From a virus: a stretch of 27,953 nucleotides of DNA. The notes beneath the pieces were generated by a model. That model searched no databases, had not been told where the DNA came from, and saw only the letters and a program-made list of their open reading frames with translations. Position numbers and translations under genes: made by a program. Position 1 is the first letter of the stretch, and each line of letters starts with the position of its first letter. Where the stretch lies: IMG/VR virus record IMGVR_UViG_3300020180_000102, positions 1 to 27,953 of that record. One strand, 5' to 3'. Positions 3,840 through 23,165 of this stretch are shown piece by piece.

Positions 3840-4063
3840 CAGACCAATGGATGACTGTCGCACAGGCGGCTGTCTTCAAAAACACGAGTACGCGCACGGT
3901 GACGCGCATACTTAAAGACCAGGTGACGCGCTCAGCTATATTTCCGCACGCTGAGCGCGTCACCACAGACCGCAACCTCCTCACGTGGAGACTCCACGTA
4001 AGCGATGTCCTTGCGTGGCAGCCGCGCAAGCCTGGTCAGCCGCGCAAGACAACACAAAGCTGA
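3836..4063 (+). CDS. Small helix-turn-helix DNA-binding protein, 75 aa
   Basis: Product begins MTDQWMTVAQAAVFKNTSTR. The segment WMTVAQAAVFKNTSTRTVTRIL has the pattern of an excisionase/MerR-like helix-turn-helix, followed by a basic region with a Trp-rich wing-like part. The ATG overlaps the previous stop (ATGA at 3836-3839). Proteins of this size and pattern act as excisionases or small transcription factors in phages; without an integrase in view neither role can be preferred. The tail is Pro/Arg/Lys-rich. Confidence 0.6.
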   Translation: MTDQWMTVAQAAVFKNTSTRTVTRILKDQVTRSAIFPHAERVTTDRNLLTWRLHVSDVLAWQPRKPGQPRKTTQS

Positions 4064-4101
4064 ACTGCACACGAAGCCGTAATTTCGGAAAGGCGGAGAA
4101 A

Positions 4102-5802
4102 ATGGGAAAACGAAGCGATCCTGCTCACGGGTGGCAGCAACGACAAAACGCACTACAACGCAAGCGCGTTCGTGCCGAGCGCGCGATGGTCGTCAGCGGC
4201 GCGGACAAACAAATCTTTACCTATGCGGCAATGGACGCGGAAACGCGAATTGTCGTGCTGCAGCGCGCGAGTGAAATCAAGACGCTGGGGCGTAAAGTCG
4301 CCGACGACATTTTCGAAATGGGCGCAAAGTTTGCCGACGTGCGCGACCGATTACGACACAACAAAGCGGGCGGCTTCGAGGGATGGATCGAACACGAGGG
4401 CTTTAAACGGCGGTTTGTATACAACGTCATTTGCGTGTACGAGGCGTTCGCCAACCGTGCAAATTTTGCACAGTTGGATGTACAGGTATCGGCGCTGTAT
4501 TTGCTGGTCGCGCCTTCGACTACGGATGAAGCACGCCAAATGCTGATCCAGCGCGCCGAAGCGGGCGAGACGATCACGTACACCGCTGCAAAACGCGCGA
4601 TTGATCAGCATAAACCTGCTGCACCGCCGCACGCACCGATCCAACCGATGGATGACGCGGTGTGGGAAGGACTGGCGAATGCCGATCCCGCGCCAGCCGC
4701 CGAAGAGAGCAATCCCGCATTTACGCCGTTTGCATCGCCGCGGCGCGCTAAAGAGACAGAGACGGCGGTACCGTCATTGCCCGGCATCTTGGTTGGTCAG
4801 CGCGTCCAACATGGTAATGCTGCATGGAGCGTGATCGGTGTGACAAGCAGTCAGGTTACGCTGCGTTCGCCCAATGGCAAGCATATCACCGTCAATGTCA
4901 AGCCCATCATTGATGTGATGGAGATGACGGTCATGCCGTCGCCAATGATGCCCGCGAATACACCGCCTGCCGCAACGAATGGTAAATCGCACACGTTGAG
5001 TGTGCTGACGTCCAGCGACAGCGTTGGTCAGCGCGTCCAACATGGTAATGCTGCATGGGGCGTGATCGGTGTGACAAGCAGTCAGGTTACGCTGCGTTCG
5101 CCCAATGGCAAGCATATCACCGTCAATGTCAAGCCCATCATTGATGTGATGGAGATGACGGTCATGCCGCCGCCAATGATGCCCTCGAATACACCGCCCG
5201 CCGCGCCGCTGCGTGTGATTGCGCCGCCACCAGGCAGGAATCACCCCGCCTCAACGAATGGTAAATCGCACACGTTGAGTGTGCTGACGTCCAGCGACAG
5301 CAACGAATGGTATACGCCTGCGCGGTATGTGGATGCGGCGCGGGTGCTGATGGGTGGCATCGATCTTGATCCGGCGTCGTGCGCGCTTGCCAACGAGACG
5401 GTCGGCGCGGCGCGCATCTTTGCGCTTGAGGATGACGGACTGGCGCAGGAATGGCGCGGGCGCGTGTGGATCAATCCGCCATATGGCAAAGAGGACGGCG
5501 AAAGCAATCAAGCGCGCTGGAGCGCGAAGCTGATCAGCGAGTGGTGTGCCGGGCGGATCGATCACGCTGTGATGCTGGTCAACGCATCGACCGGCAGCAA
5601 ATGGTTTCAAGCGCTGTGGCAGTATCCGATCTGTTTTACCGATCATCGAATCGAGTTCAACAACGCTGCTGGCGCTGCAAGTCAGCCGACACAGAGCAAC
5701 GCCTTTGTGTATTTCGGTGACGCGCTTGAGCGGTTCATTGATGTGTTCTCCGCGTTCGGCGTGATCGTGCCGAACGCGATAAGGCGGAGCGCGTCACGAT
5801 GA
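4102..5802 (+). CDS. DUF3102-like domain fused to phage N-6-adenine DNA methyltransferase (Dam type), 566 aa
   Basis: The start is taken as the ATG at 4102, with a GGCGGAG box before it, because earlier in-frame ATGs lie inside the preceding gene. Residues about 45-120 (RIVVLQRASEIKTLGRKVAD... RHNKAGGFEGWIE) match the DUF3102 pattern seen in phage and plasmid DNA-processing proteins. Residues 231-400 hold two near-identical 77-residue repeats in a Pro-rich linker. From residue 401 (NEWYTPARYVDAARVLMGGI) to the end is the phage Dam family: the GGIDLDPAS S-adenosylmethionine-site region and the catalytic NPPYG at 458-462. It should methylate adenine N6; the target site cannot be read from sequence. 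Part of the DUF3102 segment is copied, inverted, at 2514-2642. The next gene overlaps by ATGA. Confidence 0.88.
   Translation: MGKRSDPAHGWQQRQNALQRKRVRAERAMVVSGADKQIFTYAAMDAETRIVVLQRASEIKTLGRKVADDIFEMGAKFADVRDRLRHNKAGGFEGWIEHEGFKRRFVYNVICVYEAFANRANFAQLDVQVSALYLLVAPSTTDEARQMLIQRAEAGETITYTAAKRAIDQHKPAAPPHAPIQPMDDAVWEGLANADPAPAAEESNPAFTPFASPRRAKETETAVPSLPGILVGQRVQHGNAAWSVIGVTSSQVTLRSPNGKHITVNVKPIIDVMEMTVMPSPMMPANTPPAATNGKSHTLSVLTSSDSVGQRVQHGNAAWGVIGVTSSQVTLRSPNGKHITVNVKPIIDVMEMTVMPPPMMPSNTPPAAPLRVIAPPPGRNHPASTNGKSHTLSVLTSSDSNEWYTPARYVDAARVLMGGIDLDPASCALANETVGAARIFALEDDGLAQEWRGRVWINPPYGKEDGESNQARWSAKLISEWCAGRIDHAVMLVNASTGSKWFQALWQYPICFTDHRIEFNNAAGAASQPTQSNAFVYFGDALERFIDVFSAFGVIVPNAIRRSASR
4792..5301 (+). 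repeat. In-frame tandem duplication (231-bp period) in the methyltransferase linker
   Basis: A segment of about 182 bp from 4792 recurs at 5023 with about four differences. A 50-bp segment at 4973-5022 recurs exactly at 5252-5301. The second repeat carries an extra Pro-rich insert of about 50 bp between its two parts. The 231-bp offset equals 77 codons, so the frame is kept. Each copy encodes VGQRVQHGNAAW-VIGVTSS followed by a beta-like stretch and a Pro/Met-rich spacer. Confidence 0.95.
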
Positions 5803-11027: not shown

Positions 11028-12031
11028 ACGTTGTGTCTGTCTTTTCGGGTATCGAGGGGATTGGGTTAGCACTGGAACGCGCGGGCGCGACTATCGTTGC
11101 GCAAGTTGAAAAGAACCGTTTTCGACGCACCGTGCTTGAGCATCACTATCCGCACGTGTTGCGGTTAACGGACGCATATGACGCAGGAAAACAAACCCTT
11201 CCAGAAGCCGATCTTGTTTGCGGCGGAAGTCCTTGTCAAGACCTCTCAACTGCCGGAAAGCGCGCAGGCTTGGCTGGAGAGCAATCTCGTCTCTGGTATG
11301 AGTTCCATCGCATCGTTATGGAGCTTAAACCCCGATGGATTTTATTTGAGAACGTCCCCGGCTTACTCAGCTCCAATGACCGGAAAGACTTTGCAATCGT
11401 TCTTGCAGGACTTACCGGAGTCGTACCAGGTATACCTGCAAAAGGATGGCGAAACGCCGGATTTGCGCGTGGGCGATCCGGCTTCTACAGCGTGGCTTGG
11501 CGGAGTTTGGACGCTCAATATTTCGACGTCCCACAGCGCCGCGCGCGTGTCTTCGTTGTTGGCTATCTTGGAGACGGACGTGCTGCCGAAGTACTTTTTG
11601 AGCGCGAAAGCGGCAAGGGGCATATTGCTCCGCGCCAAAAAACGCGGGAAAACACTGCCTCCCCCCTTAGAGCAGTCCCTCCAAGCCGTCGTGATGGCGG
11701 CAGTTCTCCAGCACCGGGCGAATTCGTTGTACACGCCCCCCTTGTCGCGGGAACGCTGGCAGGCAGCGGCGCTGGAACAATGCGTCCTGCGGGTCAGGCG
11801 AACGAAACCGACATGCTGATCGCCGTGAATCAATCGTATGGCGGCTGGTCAATTACAGAGTTTGGCGTGCGCCGTTTCACGCCGCTTGAATGTGAGCGAC
11901 TGCAAGGTTTCCCCGACAACTGGACGAATGTAGGCATAAGTGACAGCGCGCGCTACAGAGCGTTGGGCGACTCGGTTGCCGTGCCGTGTGTGCAGTGGAT
12001 AGCCGAGCGGATCATGGCGGTGACGCCGTGA
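11024..12031 (+). CDS. dcm: DNA (cytosine-5)-methyltransferase, 335 aa
   Basis: The ATG overlaps the previous stop (ATGA). C5-methyltransferase motifs appear in order: motif I VFSGIEGIGLALE (about 5-17), motif IV GGSPCQDLS with catalytic Cys71, motif VI ENV (109-111), motif VIII QRRARVF (171-177), motif IX RFTPLECERLQGFP and motif X GDSV (315-318, usually GNSV). It transfers a methyl group from S-adenosylmethionine to carbon 5 of cytosine; target sequence unknown. The stretch between motifs VIII and IX, the target-recognition region, is short and coincides with a second long reading frame (11178-11819). Phages carry such enzymes to avoid host restriction. Operon partners are the membrane protein and the duplicated-domain protein, joined by overlaps. 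The gene symbol denotes the enzyme class. Confidence 0.92.
   Translation: MNVVSVFSGIEGIGLALERAGATIVAQVEKNRFRRTVLEHHYPHVLRLTDAYDAGKQTLPEADLVCGGSPCQDLSTAGKRAGLAGEQSRLWYEFHRIVMELKPRWILFENVPGLLSSNDRKDFAIVLAGLTGVVPGIPAKGWRNAGFARGRSGFYSVAWRSLDAQYFDVPQRRARVFVVGYLGDGRAAEVLFERESGKGHIAPRQKTRENTASPLRAVPPSRRDGGSSPAPGEFVVHAPLVAGTLAGSGAGTMRPAGQANETDMLIAVNQSYGGWSITEFGVRRFTPLECERLQGFPDNWTNVGISDSARYRALGDSVAVPCVQWIAERIMAVTP
11178..11819 (+). CDS. Nested ORF in +1 frame of the cytosine methyltransferase, 213 aa, possible overlapping gene
   Basis: Open for 213 codons entirely inside the methyltransferase gene, in the +1 frame. The product (MTQENKPFQKPILFAAEVLV...) carries KTSQLPESAQAWLESNLVSG, a WTLN-containing centre, and LPKYFLSAKAARGILLRAKK followed by RGKTLP. 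From memory, hypothetical phage proteins with a motif like YFLSxKAxxGILRRAxxRGKxLP are annotated widely beside or across such methyltransferases. Here the motif is exactly the shifted-frame reading of the methyltransferase segment VLFERESGKGHIAP. No clear Shine-Dalgarno precedes the ATG. It could be a true overlapping gene or a by-product of conserved methyltransferase codons. Confidence 0.4.
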   Translation: MTQENKPFQKPILFAAEVLVKTSQLPESAQAWLESNLVSGMSSIASLWSLNPDGFYLRTSPAYSAPMTGKTLQSFLQDLPESYQVYLQKDGETPDLRVGDPASTAWLGGVWTLNISTSHSAARVSSLLAILETDVLPKYFLSAKAARGILLRAKKRGKTLPPPLEQSLQAVVMAAVLQHRANSLYTPPLSRERWQAAALEQCVLRVRRTKPTC

Positions 12032-12579
12032 AATCATGTGTGAAATGCGACGAGCCAAGAATGATCAACGCGGCAGGCAAATTGATGACGCTGTGTGTTG
12101 AGCATCAGATCGCGTATTGGCGTGCGCGCAAACCGAAAGGCGAGAACGCGCTGCCGATGCGTGAGAAACTGAAGCGAGCGCCATCCCCGCAGCACCAGGC
12201 GTTTGTGTTGATTGACAGCGAGGCGGGTGAAATATGGCGCGTGACAGCCGTCCGCGAACACATCGAACGCGATGCTGAAAAGCTCAATCAGCATATACTG
12301 CCGATCCTCAAACGAGGTGGCGCGCGGATCGTAACGATCAAGGAGCGGGCGCGCAAACCGAAAGGTGAGAACGCGCTGCCGATGCGTGAGGAACTGAAGC
12401 GAGCGCCATCACCGAAGCACCAGGAGTTTGTGTTGATTGACAGCGAGGCGGGTGAAATATGGCGCGTGACAGCCGTCTGCGAACACATCGAACGCGATGC
12501 TGAAAAGCTCAATCAGTATATGCTGCCGATCCTCAAACGGGGTGGCGCGCGGATCGTAACGATCAAGGAGCGGGCGTGA
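12028..12579 (+). CDS. Hypothetical protein with zinc-knuckle N-terminus and duplicated domain, 183 aa
   Basis: The start is the GTG at 12028, overlapping the methyltransferase stop (GTGA). An in-frame ATG further up lies within the methyltransferase gene. The N-terminus has Cys4-x2-Cys7 and Cys23-x2-His26, a possible zinc-binding knuckle. The rest is two copies of a 75-residue unit (KPKGENALPMREKLKRAPSP... FVLIDSEAGEIWRVTAV...), differing at only a few residues. The unit has a basic N-terminal part, a strand-rich centre and a helix with Leu/Ile. The family is not recognised. The high identity between copies shows a recent duplication. The next gene begins at the stop. Confidence 0.7.
   Translation: MKSCVKCDEPRMINAAGKLMTLCVEHQIAYWRARKPKGENALPMREKLKRAPSPQHQAFVLIDSEAGEIWRVTAVREHIERDAEKLNQHILPILKRGGARIVTIKERARKPKGENALPMREELKRAPSPKHQEFVLIDSEAGEIWRVTAVCEHIERDAEKLNQYMLPILKRGGARIVTIKERA
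12122..12571 (+). repeat. Tandem duplication, 225-bp period
   Basis: The unit beginning near 12122 recurs near 12347 with about ten differences over 225 bp. The period is 75 codons, so both copies stay in frame. Several differences alter amino acids (Lys/Glu, Gln/Lys, Ala/Glu, Arg/Cys, His/Tyr), showing some divergence since duplication. Confidence 0.95.
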
Positions 12580-15733: not shown

Positions 15734-16300
15734 TTGGCTGGACGTAGCTCTAAACTAACCCCTGAACTCCAAAAGGACTTGTGTGACAACCTGAAAGCGG
15801 GCGTTGTCGTCCGTGATGCGTGCGCGCAGGTCGGCATTGGAGAGTCCACGTATTACGCGTGGTTGACCAAGAGCGGCAAACTATACGTAGAGTTTCAGGA
15901 GGCGGTCAGGCGCGCGCAAAGTTCGGCGCGGGTATCAGCAACGCTGGCGCTGCGCAGTGGAATGCTCGCATCGCAGACCGTCATTGAAGCAACGGAGATA
16001 TTTACCGAAACGCGGCTGCGTAAAATGACGGATGGCAGCGAAGAACCTTATACGTATGAGAAAAAGACGACGCGCAAATCGACGACTAAGCATCCGTCGG
16101 ATTGGCGCGCTGCGCTGGAATACCTGAAACGCCGCGATCCTGAGCACTGGTCAGATCGGGTGAAGGTTGAGGATTGGCACGATTTGGCAATTGGGTACAT
16201 CCGCGCGGGCGAAGTCAGCTTTGACGCATTAAAAGAGGAATACGGACAAGACCTTGCTACCAAACTCTTTACGGCAGCAGGCGTACCTGCAACGACTTGA
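15734..16300 (+). CDS. terS: Terminase small subunit, 188 aa
   Basis: TTG start at 15734 with AGGA 10 nt upstream. The N-terminal helix-turn-helix reads LCDNLKAGVVVRDACAQVGI followed by GESTYYAWLTKSGK, the typical DNA-recognition domain of small terminases (about 15-50). A long helical centre (YVEFQEAVRRAQSSARVSAT, then RLRKMTDGS) forms the oligomer core, and a Trp/Pro-containing region (HPSDWRAALEYLKRRDPEHW) is typical of TerS families. The C-terminus would contact the large subunit. It binds the packaging site and feeds DNA to the motor. The large-subunit gene follows immediately, overlapping by 47 nt if its TTG start is right. Confidence 0.9.
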   Translation: MAGRSSKLTPELQKDLCDNLKAGVVVRDACAQVGIGESTYYAWLTKSGKLYVEFQEAVRRAQSSARVSATLALRSGMLASQTVIEATEIFTETRLRKMTDGSEEPYTYEKKTTRKSTTKHPSDWRAALEYLKRRDPEHWSDRVKVEDWHDLAIGYIRAGEVSFDALKEEYGQDLATKLFTAAGVPATT

Positions 16301-17636
16301 GCGCGCCAAACAAAAGACACGCATGACGGCAGTGAGCGGCGCGCCGGGCGCGCCGCGCTATGTGCCGCGCGGCAGCAACCTCGAAGCGTTCACCTCAACG
16401 GCGGCGGAAGTGTTGCTGTCAGGCGCGGCGGGAACTGGCAAGAGCCGTGCGTGGCTTGAAAAACTGCACTACTGCGCGCAGATGCATCCGGGTATGCGCG
16501 GCTTGATCGTCCGCAAAACCAAGAACAGTCTCGCGGAGTCCGGCTTATACACGTTCGAGGAGCATGTGCTCGGTCGCGGGCATATGGTATTGCAGACGGG
16601 CGGGCTGCGGCGCAATCGCCAAAAGTATGTCTATCCGAATGGCAGCGAGATCGTGGTCAGCGGCATGGACAACCCGATTGCGGTTCGATCCGCAGAGTAC
16701 GACATCATTTTTGTACAGGAAGCAATCGAACTGAGTGAAGGCGAGTGGGAAGAACTAACCGGACGCCTTCGCAATGGAAAAATGCCGTATCAGCAGATTG
16801 GCGCGGATACGAACCCGTCGTTTCCGCAGCATTGGTTGAAACGACGGGCTGATCATGGGTTGGTGGAGATGATCTTTTGCCGCCACGAAGATAACCCGCG
16901 CCTGTTCGACCCCGAAACGAAGGAATGGACAGACGAGGGTAATTCGTATGTTGCGCGCCTGGATCGCCTGACGGGCGTGCGCAAGCTGCGGCTGCGCTAT
17001 GGGCAGTGGGTGCAGGCGGAGGGGGCGGTGTATGACGAATTCGACGAGTCGATCCATGTGATCGCGCCGTTCGATATACCTGAGCAATGGCGGCGTTTCA
17101 GGGTGGTAGACTTCGGATATACCAATCCGTTTACCTGCCAATGGTGGGCGGCAGATGATGACGGACGGTTGTATCTGTACCGCGAAATCTACAGAAGCGG
17201 CGTGTTGGTTGAGGATCACGCACGAACGATCAACAACCTGTCCGCGGGCGAACGGATTGACATGACAATCGCAGATCATGACGCAGAGGATCGAGCGACA
17301 CTGGAGCGGCATGGCATCAGTACGGTCGCCGCGCACAAAGATGTGACGCCTGGTATTCAGGCGGTACAGGCGCGATTGCGAAAAGCGGGAGACGGAAAGC
17401 CGCGTCTGTTTTTGATGCGCGACGCGCTGGTTGGACGCGATATCGAGTTGTATGAGGCGGGCAAGCCCGCCAGCACGCTGGATGAAATGCCAGGCTATAT
17501 GTGGCAAAAGACGACGGACGGCAAGCCGAACAAAGAGCAGCCGCTCAAAATCGACGATCACGGGATGGACGCGCTGCGGTACATGGTCGCGCAGATGGAC
17601 TTAATCAGCAGCGCATGGGGGTTCGACTTAGCATGA
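16254..17636 (+). CDS. terL: Terminase large subunit (ATPase-nuclease packaging motor), 460 aa
   Basis: The N-terminal ATPase has Walker A LLSGAAGTGKS (Lys63) and Walker B DIIFVQEA (Asp150, Glu156). The C-terminal RNase-H-like nuclease has VVDFGYTNP (Asp286), IADHDAEDR (Asp341, Asp343) and DDHGMDALRY (Asp434, Asp435, Asp439). It powers packaging by ATP hydrolysis and cuts the DNA concatemer. The start is uncertain: TTG at 16254 lies inside the small-subunit gene with GAGG about 13 nt before it; ATG 16323 would remove 23 residues and lacks a clear RBS. The portal gene begins at its stop (ATGA). Length is normal for a siphovirus TerL. Confidence 0.93.
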   Translation: MLPNSLRQQAYLQRLERAKQKTRMTAVSGAPGAPRYVPRGSNLEAFTSTAAEVLLSGAAGTGKSRAWLEKLHYCAQMHPGMRGLIVRKTKNSLAESGLYTFEEHVLGRGHMVLQTGGLRRNRQKYVYPNGSEIVVSGMDNPIAVRSAEYDIIFVQEAIELSEGEWEELTGRLRNGKMPYQQIGADTNPSFPQHWLKRRADHGLVEMIFCRHEDNPRLFDPETKEWTDEGNSYVARLDRLTGVRKLRLRYGQWVQAEGAVYDEFDESIHVIAPFDIPEQWRRFRVVDFGYTNPFTCQWWAADDDGRLYLYREIYRSGVLVEDHARTINNLSAGERIDMTIADHDAEDRATLERHGISTVAAHKDVTPGIQAVQARLRKAGDGKPRLFLMRDALVGRDIELYEAGKPASTLDEMPGYMWQKTTDGKPNKEQPLKIDDHGMDALRYMVAQMDLISSAWGFDLA

Positions 17637-20287
17637 GCATGATTTTCGGCGGCGATACCAAAACGACTTATGCGATCAAAAGTGCTATGCAGCAGTATGT
17701 CGCCGCAAATCGCATCGATGCGACGAGCCATGAATTAACGCAACTGTATGCAACGTCAGTGACGTTGGGACAGGTGGCGGATTTTCGCGGCAATATGATC
17801 GCGCAAATTCCGATGCGCGTGAAGATCAACGGAAAGATCGTTGACGAGAAAAATCCAATCTATTCGATCTTCCGACGCGGCGCTGGTTACAGCGATCTCG
17901 CTAAGCGCACCGAGATCACGATGATATTCTGGGGTCGTAACCTGCTGTGGAAAGATCGCAACGCTTTTAACGTGCCGCGCAAGCTGACGTGGATCAATCC
18001 GAATATCTACATGCTTGATGTGTATTCGACGCACGGGCTGCGCGGCTTTCGACTGATGCAGGCGCGGGGATACAGCGATGAACGCTACATTGATCTTGAG
18101 GATGCGGTGTATGTGCATGGCATTGATTTCGATGACGACTTCGACGGCGTGGGCGAGGCGGAGCGCGCGTTTCTAGAGGCGTCGGTCGAACCGGAGCGGG
18201 CGCAAACGCTGATCAGCACGTTCAGGAACATGGGCATTCCTGCCGGGATTGTGCAGCCGACAGAGGGCGGCGGCGACATGAAGCCCGAGGAGCGAAGTGG
18301 ACTGGCGGGTATGCTGCGGCGCGTGACTGAAGGCGCACAGAATGCGGGGCGCACGATTGTGTCGGCGCGACGCTATGAATGGCGACAAATGCAATCGGCG
18401 CTGAAAGACATGGATTTATCACCGATTGCAAGAGAGGCGCGCGAGTCGATTTGCTTTGCGCTGGGCGTGCCGATGAGCCTGATCCAATCGAACTCATCGA
18501 GCTATGCGGAACTGGAAGGATTGCGCCGCGTGTGGGCGCACGCATGGCTCGTGCCGCGCGCGGAATGGTACGCGCAAGAACTGACCGAGCAGTTGGGGCG
18601 CGACCCGTTCCTGATCCGTGCGGTAGGCGGGGATATCGTGATCGAACCTGATCTTGATGCGGTACCGTTTTTAAAAGAGGACGCTGCGAGCCGCGTGAAC
18701 GTGGTGAATGCGAAGGTGATGGGCGGCTTGATGAGCCTGTACGATGCGCAGGTTGCGGCAGGCGAGAAGCCGCGCGACGAATTCCGCGATTTGTACAATG
18801 TGCCTGGCATCGGCGTGCTTCCGGCGGCGGAGGTGATGAATGTGTGGCGTGAAAAAATCCTCCCTACGCCGCCATCGTCATTTGGCGCACTGCTCGGATC
18901 AACATCCAGCGCGCCGCCGCAAGTGGATGATGCGCCGCGCGTGCTGCCTGATCAACCAAAAGATGTTGAGGCGGCACTGGGTGTGCCCGCGCCGCAAAAG
19001 GCGGTCAGTAAAGCCGCGTATGTGACAATTCCACTGGCGGATCACGATGATCTGCTGGTGGCGCAGTACAAGCTGCGCCGTGCGCTGGAAGGCGTTGACG
19101 GGGTGGAATGGCAATCCCCGGCAACATTTCATATCACGCTGGTGTACAGCGAGTATGTGCCGGACGTGATGCTGCAATCGGTGATCGCCGCGCTGCGGAC
19201 ACAGCCCGCCCTGCTGCAATGCGATATTGAAGGCGGGGCGCTGGGTGTGTTCGAAAGCGGCGACGAACGCGCGTTGTGCGTACAGGTGCATGTAGGCGAC
19301 GAGGTGCGCGCGCTACAAGCGGCGGTGTATGCGGCGTTCGATGAGCGCCATGTGCCGTTATCGGCGTACAGCGAGGCGGCGGCATGGAAGCCGCATATCA
19401 CGCTGGCATATTTTCCAAGAGAGATTGATGTGCCGGACGTGCGCGTTGGGCTGCACGCGCACGTGAGCAAAATCCAGATCAGCCGCGCGGATCATGAGCA
19501 CGTTGCCACCATGACACTGGCGCGGCGGCTGGGCGATCTGGCGGTGAAGTCAAAAATCCCGGACGCGCAGCGCAAAGAACTTACCGACTGGCGGCGCATC
19601 GTTGCGCGCAAAAGCGCGGCATACGCATTCGAGACGGTTGAATTGCCCGGCATGGTTGCGGCGATGATCCGCATGGCGCTAGAGGATGGTGAGCCGCCTG
19701 GCGATGTGTTCGACGAGGCGGAGGCATGGCTTGCAGGTTTTGGCGTCAAGTCGTATGAGGATACGAGCGCCGCGTTCGTGCAAGAGATGATTCGGATCAT
19801 CGGTGAAGGGCAGCGCAGCGAGGTGAGCCGCCAGAAATTTGGCGGACAGATGCGCAGTGCGCTGCGGCGGTATGGATTGATCGCGTTCTCGGACGGACGT
19901 GCGGCAGAGGGCGGGGATATTGAGTCGATCAGCATTGATGAGTTGAAGGTGTTTCGCGCGTGGCAGGCGGAAACGTCCGCGTTTATCACGGGCTTCGGCG
20001 CGGAAATCTTCACAGAGGGCGGGATCGACGAGGCAGAGATCGCCATTCGCGCGGATATGTGGGCGGACAAGTCGCTGCGGGATGTGCGGAATCGTGGTGC
20101 GGCGCTGGTCGCACCGAAGAAGCTGAAACGATGGAAACGAAACCCTGCGAAAGATTCATGCGACGATTGTTTGGCGCGCGATGGACAGGTGATGACGTTC
20201 GAGGAATGGGAACAGATCGGACTGCCGGGTGATCAACGGCTCGCGTGTCATGGTTTCTTTTGCGGCTGCACTTTGGAGGATGCGTAG
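17633..20287 (+). CDS. Portal protein fused to 2H phosphoesterase-like domain and MuF-type head-morphogenesis domain, 884 aa
   Basis: ATG at 17633 overlaps the TerL stop (ATGA); the longer upstream frame is inside terL. Residues 1 to about 430 are an HK97-type portal (MSMIFGGDTKTTYAIKSAMQ..., FRNMGIPAGIVQPTEG, RESICFALGVPMSLIQSNSS). About 460-640 is a 2H phosphoesterase domain: FHITLVY (His500, Thr502) and PHITLAY (His588, Thr590), 88 residues apart. The C-terminus (about 660-884) is MuF-like, ending with KDSCDDCLARDGQVMTFEEW and CHGFFCGC, the cysteine pattern of minor head proteins. The portal is the capsid vertex through which DNA enters; the MuF part lies inside the head. A 2H domain inside the portal-MuF chain is unusual; such domains cleave 2'-5' or cyclic phosphodiesters. 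Confidence 0.9.
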   Translation: MSMIFGGDTKTTYAIKSAMQQYVAANRIDATSHELTQLYATSVTLGQVADFRGNMIAQIPMRVKINGKIVDEKNPIYSIFRRGAGYSDLAKRTEITMIFWGRNLLWKDRNAFNVPRKLTWINPNIYMLDVYSTHGLRGFRLMQARGYSDERYIDLEDAVYVHGIDFDDDFDGVGEAERAFLEASVEPERAQTLISTFRNMGIPAGIVQPTEGGGDMKPEERSGLAGMLRRVTEGAQNAGRTIVSARRYEWRQMQSALKDMDLSPIAREARESICFALGVPMSLIQSNSSSYAELEGLRRVWAHAWLVPRAEWYAQELTEQLGRDPFLIRAVGGDIVIEPDLDAVPFLKEDAASRVNVVNAKVMGGLMSLYDAQVAAGEKPRDEFRDLYNVPGIGVLPAAEVMNVWREKILPTPPSSFGALLGSTSSAPPQVDDAPRVLPDQPKDVEAALGVPAPQKAVSKAAYVTIPLADHDDLLVAQYKLRRALEGVDGVEWQSPATFHITLVYSEYVPDVMLQSVIAALRTQPALLQCDIEGGALGVFESGDERALCVQVHVGDEVRALQAAVYAAFDERHVPLSAYSEAAAWKPHITLAYFPREIDVPDVRVGLHAHVSKIQISRADHEHVATMTLARRLGDLAVKSKIPDAQRKELTDWRRIVARKSAAYAFETVELPGMVAAMIRMALEDGEPPGDVFDEAEAWLAGFGVKSYEDTSAAFVQEMIRIIGEGQRSEVSRQKFGGQMRSALRRYGLIAFSDGRAAEGGDIESISIDELKVFRAWQAETSAFITGFGAEIFTEGGIDEAEIAIRADMWADKSLRDVRNRGAALVAPKKLKRWKRNPAKDSCDDCLARDGQVMTFEEWEQIGLPGDQRLACHGFFCGCTLEDA

Positions 20288-20289
20288 AG

Positions 20290-20457
20290 ATGACACGCGA
20301 ACAGTGGAACATGATGTCGCCAACGCAGCAGTTCGATTACGTGCGGTTGCTCGAACTGATGGTTGACGAGCCTACCATCGATCAAACCGCAGAGATGGCG
20401 ATGCTGGCTGAGCCGCCGTTCGACGAAGCGGATACGGCAAAATTCGAGGCACTGTGA
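20290..20457 (+). CDS. Small hypothetical protein, 55 aa
   Basis: The start is the ATG at 20290, because an earlier in-frame ATG is within the portal gene; GGAGG lies upstream at about 11 nt. The product begins MTREQWNMMSPTQQFDYVRL and is acidic and helical (Glu/Asp-rich, with Met and Leu spaced for helices). A 55-residue acidic protein between portal and connector genes may be a small head-accessory protein. Family not recognised. Its last bases overlap the GTG start of the next gene (GTGA). Confidence 0.65.
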   Translation: MTREQWNMMSPTQQFDYVRLLELMVDEPTIDQTAEMAMLAEPPFDEADTAKFEAL

Positions 20458-20990
20458 TCCAGTTTAGCACCGACAGCGGACTATCGCGGCAAACGTTTGC
20501 AGATTTGAAATATGCGGTGAAGTTTGCGCCGCGCACATTGCGAACCATCGTCAACAAATCAATCTTGCCGCGCTCGCGCGCGCGCTTGTTGAAAGTGTTA
20601 GCGACTGAAGCGGGACCGGTCAGTCGTCCGTTTGAGTTTGCGACAGCCAGGTCGAGGGCGTGGTATTTCGCCAACAAGAAAGCGCCATACCGCCGCACAG
20701 GACGGATGATTAAAAGTTGGAAAGTGATGATGCGGCAGTTTCAAGGTAATGCGTTCGGTATCGTGGCAGAGAACGATGCGCCAGGCGCGCAGTACGTTTT
20801 TGGACCTCGACAAGTGCCGGGTCATTTCTATACCGGATGGGCAGATGCCGACATTGCTGTGAACGATGAAGCGGCACGGCTTGATGATGAGGTGATCACG
20901 GCGGCGCTGACGGTCATTGATGCGGGAACTTTGAAGCGGCTTGGCTTGGGGACGGCGGCGGCGGTGTTGGGGCGGCGCGCGGGGTTGTGA
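20454..20990 (+). CDS. Probable head-tail connector / HK97 gp10-like protein, 178 aa
   Basis: GTG start at 20454, overlapping the previous TGA. The product begins MIQFSTDSGLSRQTFADLKY and continues with basic helical and beta stretches (TRSRAWYFANKKAPYRRTGRMI, GNAFGIVAENDAPGAQYVFG). A TGRMI-K-SW region followed by AQYVFGPRQ resembles the gp10-like head-tail joining proteins, which bind a tube or collar; this is a resemblance, not a firm motif. Genes with this position (between portal and protease-capsid) often encode connectors or morphogenesis proteins. Confidence 0.6.
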   Translation: MIQFSTDSGLSRQTFADLKYAVKFAPRTLRTIVNKSILPRSRARLLKVLATEAGPVSRPFEFATARSRAWYFANKKAPYRRTGRMIKSWKVMMRQFQGNAFGIVAENDAPGAQYVFGPRQVPGHFYTGWADADIAVNDEAARLDDEVITAALTVIDAGTLKRLGLGTAAAVLGRRAGL

Positions 20991-21047: not shown

Positions 21048-23165
21048 ATGAGTACGACCGCGCACGGAAACGTTCTGTTGGACGCAAAAACACAAGCCTT
21101 GTGGCAGGAAACTTACGACGCGGCTTTTGCCGACACGAACGACGAGCGGCTTGCTGAACTCGCGGCGTGGGGCGCTATTCGCCGCCGCTATGTAATGCGG
21201 CTGCTCGGTCGCAAAAGCGCGGCGGGCAATCCCATCGTCACAGGATGGGCGATGCTGTTCACGGATGCAGGCGCGCGGGATGTCGATAACCAGTATTTCG
21301 ACGCCGCGACCGACACGCTGCTTGATTTTTACGGGGGCGCGCCGCTGTGGTACGAGCACGGTCAGGACGCCACGTATGGTATTGCGCCGATTGGACGACG
21401 AGTCAACGCAAGGGTGTATCGGCGCGGCGTCGTCCTCGAACACGAACTACTTCCGGATCATCCGCTTTTCGAGCGCACGATGCGCGAAATCGAGGCGGGT
21501 GATCTGACGTACAGCACGGACACGCTCTCGCACTATGCACGCGAAGGATACGACGATGAATCGGGGTATCTGCGTGTGTGGTTTGCGGCGGGGTGCTCTG
21601 TCACTCGAAACCCGGCTGAACCTGCGCTCGGCGCGGTGACAGGAGGGGAATTTATCACGGCGATGAAACGTGCGACGGCTGAGGCGCGGGAGGCGCAAGG
21701 CGGCACGATCAACGATGGATCGGCAAACAAGACTATGGAGACCTCTCGCATGAAAGAGAAATTGTTAAAGCAGTTGGCGTTATTCTTTGGCGTCGATGCG
21801 ACGCTGACAGCCGTCAAGATGGCAACGGAAGATGTGATCGCCGCGATGACGGAGGAAGACACCGACGAAGAAGGCGCGGGCGAAGCCAAAGATGGAGTGC
21901 CGGATATGGCACAGCTTCGCGCGGCACTGCAACTGCCGGAAGACGCGGATGCAACGGCGATCCGCGAGGCATTGATGGCGTTGATCGCCACAATGGAAGC
22001 GCCTGTTGATGCTGCGCCCGTCGTTGAAGGCGGGATGTCGGCGGCGAAGATGGCGCGCTTGAACTATGGCGCGTTGGGTGCGGCGTGGTCGGATGCGACG
22101 AAATCTGCGCCCGCGTTGGGTGGCGCGCCGTCGCTGACCAAGAAGCACGATGCGCCGGGCAAGAGCCGCACGTATGGCGGTGGTGCGTTCGGCGGCACTG
22201 GCAAATCCAGCAAGCCGAGCCTGATCAAGATGATCAACGACATTACATCGGGTAAGGCGGCGTCGAGCCAGATCGGTTCAACGGGCGGATACATCCTCAA
22301 CATGGACGTGTCAGATCAGATCATCCCCGAATTGTTGGAGAAAAACTGGCTGATGGAGGCAGGCGTGACGCAGTATCCGATGGACGGGACGGCGGCGCTG
22401 ACCATCCCCAAGGATGAGGGCGGCGAAGAAGCGTACTGGGTGGGTGAAGCACAGGAAGTCGGCCAGACCGAACCGTCATTTGGCGCGATCACGCTGATGC
22501 CAAAGGCGGTTGCCGCGCGCATTCCGATCCCCAACCAACTCCTGAATAACAGCCGAATCAACTACGAAGCGCATGTACGCGAAAAAATCGTGTATCGCAT
22601 CAATCGCGCGATTGAAAACGCGGCGCTGTTTGGCACGGGCGGCGTAGTGGCAGGCAGCACGGGCGCGCAGCCGCGCGGGTTGGTCAACACAACCGGAGTG
22701 ACGATTACGTCGCTTGGAACGAACGGGGCGCAGCCCACGTTGGAAGATTTGACGGCGGCAGAGCTCCGTTTACAAGAGTCGAGCGTTGAAGCGTCCGAGA
22801 GTTGGCGATGGGTGCTTTCGCCGCGCACAAAAAAGACGTTCACCGATTTGACGGATCTGGACGGCAATCCGCTGCTGCGCCAAACATGGCGCGACGGCAC
22901 ACCTTCAACCCTGATCGGCTATCCGTATCAGGCGACAACGCTCGTGCCGAATAATTTAACGGTCGGCACGAGCGCCGATTGCTCCTACATCTTCCTGGGT
23001 GAGTGGAAACATTTTGCAATCGGCATCAGTAATCAGATCGAAATTGCGGTCAACCCTTATCGGCTGATGCATCAGTTGATGACCGAGATCATCGCGTACA
23101 CCTACGTTGATGTCGCGGTTTTGCAACCGAGCGCATTCGAGGTGTTAACGGGCGTGCGCCCGTAA
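21048..23165 (+). CDS. HK97-type prohead protease fused to major capsid protein, 705 aa
   Basis: ATG at 21048. Residues 1-205 are a prohead protease of the S78-like type: GWAMLFTDAGARDVDNQYFD, catalytic His104 (LWYEHGQD) and a candidate catalytic Ser156 (LTYSTDT), with GYLRVWFAAGCSVTRNPAEP as the closing motif. A helical, acidic, Glu/Asp-rich stretch (about 225-320) looks like the delta/scaffold region. From about 405 (SSQIGSTGGYILNMDVSDQI) to the end is the HK97-fold major capsid protein (EVGQTEPSFGAITLMPKAVA, AAELRLQESSVEASESWRWV). The protein would be cut by its own protease during head maturation. The fusion is known in some phages, but separate genes are more common. Start RBS is weak (GGATG). 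Confidence 0.9.
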   Translation: MSTTAHGNVLLDAKTQALWQETYDAAFADTNDERLAELAAWGAIRRRYVMRLLGRKSAAGNPIVTGWAMLFTDAGARDVDNQYFDAATDTLLDFYGGAPLWYEHGQDATYGIAPIGRRVNARVYRRGVVLEHELLPDHPLFERTMREIEAGDLTYSTDTLSHYAREGYDDESGYLRVWFAAGCSVTRNPAEPALGAVTGGEFITAMKRATAEAREAQGGTINDGSANKTMETSRMKEKLLKQLALFFGVDATLTAVKMATEDVIAAMTEEDTDEEGAGEAKDGVPDMAQLRAALQLPEDADATAIREALMALIATMEAPVDAAPVVEGGMSAAKMARLNYGALGAAWSDATKSAPALGGAPSLTKKHDAPGKSRTYGGGAFGGTGKSSKPSLIKMINDITSGKAASSQIGSTGGYILNMDVSDQIIPELLEKNWLMEAGVTQYPMDGTAALTIPKDEGGEEAYWVGEAQEVGQTEPSFGAITLMPKAVAARIPIPNQLLNNSRINYEAHVREKIVYRINRAIENAALFGTGGVVAGSTGAQPRGLVNTTGVTITSLGTNGAQPTLEDLTAAELRLQESSVEASESWRWVLSPRTKKTFTDLTDLDGNPLLRQTWRDGTPSTLIGYPYQATTLVPNNLTVGTSADCSYIFLGEWKHFAIGISNQIEIAVNPYRLMHQLMTEIIAYTYVDVAVLQPSAFEVLTGVRP

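Follow-up and report, generated by a model that had tools for sequence, protein, structure and literature searches.

A predicted 2H phosphoesterase domain set between the portal and a MuF-like region in a protein of uncultivated phages

The portal protein encoded in IMG/VR record IMGVR_UViG_3300020180_000102 appears to carry an enzyme. A LigT/ThpR-like 2H domain follows the portal on a flexible linker and is itself followed by a MuF-like region. We give about an even chance to the interpretation that this is an enzyme carried in the phage head and directed against nucleotide signals of the host. The window, which is the whole stretch analysed (27,953 nucleotides, positions 1 to 27,953 of the record), contains the three parts in one open frame, as the initial annotation had stated: its 884 codons are uninterrupted and encode 884 amino acids. 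The two HIT motifs are also found where they had been placed, at residues 500–502 and 588–590, with a spacing of exactly 88 residues, within the roughly 80–90 that mark the 2H superfamily. The features of this region are the following:

16254–17636, plus strand: terminase large subunit, directly upstream of the fusion (PF04466, E 7.1e-12; PHROG terminase)
17633–20287, plus strand: portal-2H-MuF-like fusion frame (884 aa); its ATG overlaps the 3' end, with the stop codon, of the terminase frame
17792–18736, plus strand: HK97-type portal domain, aa 54–368 (PF04860, E 2.6e-23; PHROG portal families)
18851–19012, plus strand: linker between portal and 2H rich in Pro, Ala, Ser and Gln, about aa 407–460 (from the sequence)
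19013–19537, plus strand: predicted 2H phosphoesterase domain, about aa 461–635 (PF13563; AlphaFold2; Foldseek matches to LigT/CPDase)
19130–19138, plus strand: first HxT motif, H500-I-T502 (FHITL), conserved in the related locus L030
19394–19402, plus strand: second HxT motif, H588-I-T590 (KPHIT), conserved in L030
19550–20284, plus strand: MuF-like C-terminal region, about aa 640–884 (PF04233 below threshold; alignment of seven relatives)
20159–20269, plus strand: putative metal-binding motif CDDC...CHGFFCGC, aa 843–879 (Cys and Trp positions invariant in seven sequences)
20454–20990, plus strand: HK97 gp10-like gene, downstream of the fusion (PF04883 below threshold)
21048–23165, plus strand: major capsid frame with ChaB-like and protease-like regions at its N-terminus (PF05065, E 7.1e-47)

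The two ends of the protein differ in how clearly they are recognised. The portal domain that had been reported is clearly present: PF04860 scores 83.2 bits vs a cut-off of 39.1, and the terminase gene lies directly upstream. For the C-terminus, described from the start as MuF-like, the position stands, as the region comes after portal and 2H within one chain of the head module. Its profile match does not reach the curated cut-off (PF04233, E 7.8e-4, 14.9 bits vs 29.6 in a single-record search), nor does that of any relative. In the window, L041 and L051 alike, the sub-threshold match lies in the latter half of the profile. The C-termini of the relatives have in common a CxDC...W...C...CxC motif. 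It is found at the end of the proteins from the window, L030, L041, L045, L049, L051 and L082, and in the alignment of these seven sequences C-D-C, W, C, C and C are invariant. By sequence the end of the fusion is thus weakly MuF-like, below threshold.

The domain at about residues 461–635 is well supported as a 2H phosphoesterase by its motifs, profiles and predicted fold. The Pfam 2H profile PF13563 gives E 4.4e-10 with the whole protein and E 2.9e-12 with the isolated domain, and LigT_PEase (PF02834) gives E 1.7e-5; both exceed their curated cut-offs. With such profile E-values a chance origin of the HxT motifs is ruled out. A third H-x-S, at residue 610, is incidental. The score with the ThpR/LigT equivalog of NCBIfam (TIGR02258) is 33.7 bits vs a cut-off of 65.7, which places the domain below this equivalog. 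The Acb1 profile PF23474 gives 15.6 bits vs a cut-off of 27, a score that rules out membership in Acb1 proper; sub-threshold Acb1 matches in Pfam are found in the window and in several relatives.

Residues 455–649 were modelled with AlphaFold2 using an alignment of 42 rows. The model is confident (pLDDT 91.5, pTM 0.84) and has the 2H fold which had been expected; a single-sequence model of the full protein (pLDDT 37) was discarded. In a Foldseek search of the PDB the top matches are drCPDase 5h7e (E 4.6e-8), 1iuh and E. coli LigT, with probability 1.00 and TM about 0.7 to CPDase/LigT. Further matches are the AKAP18, Usb1, rotavirus VP3 and coronavirus ns2 phosphodiesterases, together with mitoribosomal AKAP7-like proteins; the poxvirus cGAMP phosphodiesterase matches more weakly. 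Acb1 is absent among the best 50 PDB matches listed, and a model named Acb1 has rank 33 in a library of viral structures. At the sequence level the profile finds as its nearest solved proteins archaeal LigT-like proteins and the Deinococcus 2',3'-cyclic phosphodiesterase, while with Acb1 it gives E 0.53. The 2H fold and the paired motifs of the initial annotation are thus upheld, and so is its comparison with LigT: the model matches 2',3'-cyclic phosphodiesterases of the LigT/ThpR type. Since these are the nearest relatives, the likeness to Acb1 which it had also drawn is limited to the superfamily level. Neither a fold other than 2H nor homologs lacking the paired HxT motifs came to light, because profiles, confident fold prediction and homologs all support both features.

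The fusion is not restricted to this record. It had been suggested that other portal-2H-MuF fusions be searched for, and we have found nine other IMG/VR contigs with a 2H domain after the portal part; their portals and terminases are partly unrelated. One of them, L030, was reached through a terminase search which is blind to the HxT motif. It shows the portal-2H-MuF-like order with both motifs. That search gave 37 loci with related terminases, and a 2H is seen only in L030; several of these loci are too short to reach the portal. The other eight fusion proteins (L041, L045, L046, L047, L049, L051, L081 and L082) come from two DNA-pattern scans of viral contigs in which both motifs were required, so that motif conservation in these eight is not independent evidence. 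Strong conservation extends outside the search pattern to the LSxYS stretch before KPHIT, to F540 and to Q562. A Pfam portal match is present in nine of the ten fusion proteins and a PF13563 match in all ten isolated domains. Most relatives have comparable linkers between portal and 2H, which vary in length. The fusions of L047 and L081 are truncated where their DNA stops; that of L046 has its stop 91 bases short of the contig end and lacks the Cys motif. The portal-2H-MuF-like protein of L082 (9866–13264, minus strand) has about 200 extra residues after the 2H with no profile match; a degenerate second 2H was considered for this region and rejected, as the profile found one copy only.

Elsewhere the 2H domain is found in short frames. 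In bacterial and archaeal genomes the pattern with both motifs gave only frames of 146–256 aa, stand-alone enzymes by their length. Among 399 Pseudomonadota genomes the 2H profile matched 37 frames, mostly of 180–250 aa. Three are longer (506, 514 and 324 aa); that of 506 aa is a stand-alone enzyme whose open frame continues upstream. The portal-2H clade was found neither in these 399 genomes nor in the phage database. With phage records, 2H queries gave no portal fusion and whole-protein queries gave matches confined to the portal part. As queries against viral or genome contigs, neither the whole protein nor the capsid protein nor the first two-row 2H alignment led to further loci. The MuF-like profile had zero matches in 299 Pseudomonadota genomes, in a search without positive control. 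A motif-unbiased search that used the C-terminus recovered the L082 contig and no other; in plasmids there were four weak matches, none of which coincides with an annotated feature.

The 2H region changes little in protein relative to its silent change. For the pair L046/L081 dN is 0.14 vs a dS of about 2, and for L041/L045 silent sites are saturated. This second pair has a peculiar structure: amino-acid identity is 94% in the portal and 90% in the C-terminus, and residues about 376–600, linker and 2H, have 45–72% nucleotide identity, with 20–56% at third positions. Both proteins keep intact HxT motifs. In this one pair it looks as if linker and 2H had been replaced by recombination between near-identical flanks, and the 2H would therefore behave as an exchangeable cassette. 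L041 and L049 are 55% identical in the 2H vs 26% over 144 aligned portal residues. Replacement and contrast are what a functional cassette in an evolutionary arms race would be expected to show. None of the frames of L041, L045, L046, L049, L081 and L082 is detectably similar to the window terminase; the six frames directly upstream of their fusions have a Pfam terminase match over the cut-off in two cases and below it in one.

The gene order terminase, fusion, gp10-like, capsid recurs partly in the relatives, and gp10-like homologs adjoin the fusion in L049 and L082. At the start of the capsid frame the ChaB (8.4e-6) and Mu-like_Pro (0.02) matches are both under the cut-off; the counterpart in L030 carries Peptidase_S78. 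This frame is a possible source of the maturation protease.

Other parts of the window have repeats. A directly adjacent 225-nt repeat (96%) at 12120–12569 doubles a unit of 75 aa in the frame 11986–12579. Direct repeats of 182 nt (98%) and 57 nt (96%), at 4792–5204 and 4966–5301, lie within the frame 3985–5802, which has a Dam methylase domain at its end. The right arm of a 129-nt inverted repeat (2514–2642 and 4244–4372, 98% complementary, arms 1601 nt apart) falls within the same frame. GC-rich 12-nt repeats are found at 3–116, the left end of the record.

By the topology of portals, the region following the portal core would face the capsid interior. A MuF-type protein, gp7 of phage SPP1, is directed by the portal into the procapsid interior (PMC6316719). 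By analogy the part of our protein after the portal core would lie on the inner side of the capsid, and up to 12 copies of the 2H may travel with the packaged DNA. Catalysis would be of the metal-free HxT/HxT acid-base type, with 2'-3' cyclic, 2'-5' or cyclic-oligonucleotide phosphodiesters as putative targets; the substrate cannot be deduced from sequence. Release by the head protease, or entry into the cell alongside the DNA, is assumed. The most likely role would be that of an early counter-defence enzyme acting on a host nucleotide signal, and the capsid-internal enzyme proposed in the initial annotation is plausible. Several points stand against it: the nearest relatives are cyclic phosphodiesterases of housekeeping type, the MuF match is below threshold, and a domain tethered to the portal must be cleaved to exit the virion. 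No cleavage site which would free the 2H from the portal was identified.

RNA processing is the main alternative, possible though doubtful. The domain would then be an RNase or an RNA-end processing enzyme, similar to Usb1 or ThpR, whose target is host or phage RNA instead of a defence signal. The structural matches include Usb1 and LigT, and the sequence profile is nearest to ThpR-type cyclic phosphodiesterases; Iyer et al. 2017 regard an RNase function as compatible with what portal/MuF-PBECR fusions suggest by analogy (PMC5512222). However, the window has no tRNA and the ten other frames checked have no RNA ligase match, so that no repair pathway is visible in this record, which may be a fragment. 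An unlikely reading keeps the enzyme in the infected cell, where it would act during late expression and assembly and never be ejected, destroying signals or RNA locally while bound to the portal, for example at the spot where the portal is sensed by a defence protein. With the 2H covalently tied to the portal, its placement can be explained without a release step, and portals do trigger defence: YonE of SPbeta activates SpbK, which makes ADPR and N1-cADPR (PMC12847820). The countering of defences that target portal or terminase has also been raised for portal-linked ADP-ribosyltransferases (PMC9503650). But the MuF-like region after the 2H speaks for a place inside the capsid, late timing would come after most alarms, and we have found in this analysis no 2H enzyme known to cleave cADPR-type signals.

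It is quite improbable that the tethered 2H destroys in place the nucleotide signal of a portal-recognising defence, the linker-2H cassette being swapped between phages to match different signals. Least credible of all is a non-catalytic domain, structural or nucleotide-binding, which would assist the assembly of the portal or the handling of DNA. There are proteins of 2H fold that serve mainly for binding or as structural parts, and AKAP18 and mitoribosomal AKAP7-like proteins are found among the fold matches. Against it, the window and the independently found L030 each have the two HxT motifs intact. The restriction of the 2H to L030 among the 37 related-terminase loci, several too short for the portal, argues that assembly does not in general require it.

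The idea of portal/MuF-2H fusions is not new. Iyer et al. 2017 (PMC5512222) describe, in phage polyvalent proteins, fusions of 2H with MuF or portal domains, and propose that these act as RNases or destroy signal nucleotides; the latter proposal was made again in 2022 (PMC9503650). Our protein belongs with these fusions, as its 2H is joined to a portal in the packaging module, with the same kinds of domain, fusion logic and functional proposals. With respect to them it differs by the three-part chain, by its presence in uncultivated phages and by the evidence for 2H cassette exchange. Figure 5B of that paper may already show the triple order. What looks modestly new is the recurrence of the three-part chain among uncultivated phages, together with the apparent exchangeability of its 2H part. 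Our literature search found no experimental test of a portal-2H fusion.

Other known systems are similar in part. The LigT/ThpR RNA 2',3'-cyclic phosphodiesterases (5h7e, 1iuh, 5ldo) share fold and HxT pair and are the best structural and profile matches, but they stand alone with about 180–200 aa, whereas the window domain is embedded in a virion protein and scores below the NCBIfam equivalog cut-off. The anti-CBASS nuclease Acb1 (PMC9117128) likewise has a 2H fold with the HxT/HxT tetrad; it is a free protein, while the window 2H is fused to the portal. MuF polymorphic toxins (Jamet et al. 2017, PMC5576092) also join an enzyme to a MuF-type head protein near the portal. There the enzyme is C-terminal to MuF and the gene lies downstream of the portal gene; here it lies between portal and MuF-like parts in one chain. 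In L083 (1–1935, plus strand) a 2H is again found on a head-module protein, but its partner is not a portal: the 2H lies ahead of a serine protease of XkdF type (PF14550, E 1.8e-19); by eye, the frame 5925–6926 of L043 (minus strand) looks like the same fusion. Very long frames with a 2H and repeated segments are found in L044 (7813–12198, plus strand, 1462 aa) and L050 (2–7513, plus strand, 2504 aa). Each is truncated at one end of the sequence retrieved, and they resemble polyvalent proteins.

If the 2H is active and carried in the head, the phage would have an enzyme ready against a nucleotide- or RNA-based response of the host even before phage gene expression begins. Linker and 2H, as an exchangeable cassette, would also offer a natural set of variants for probing which host signals are targeted.
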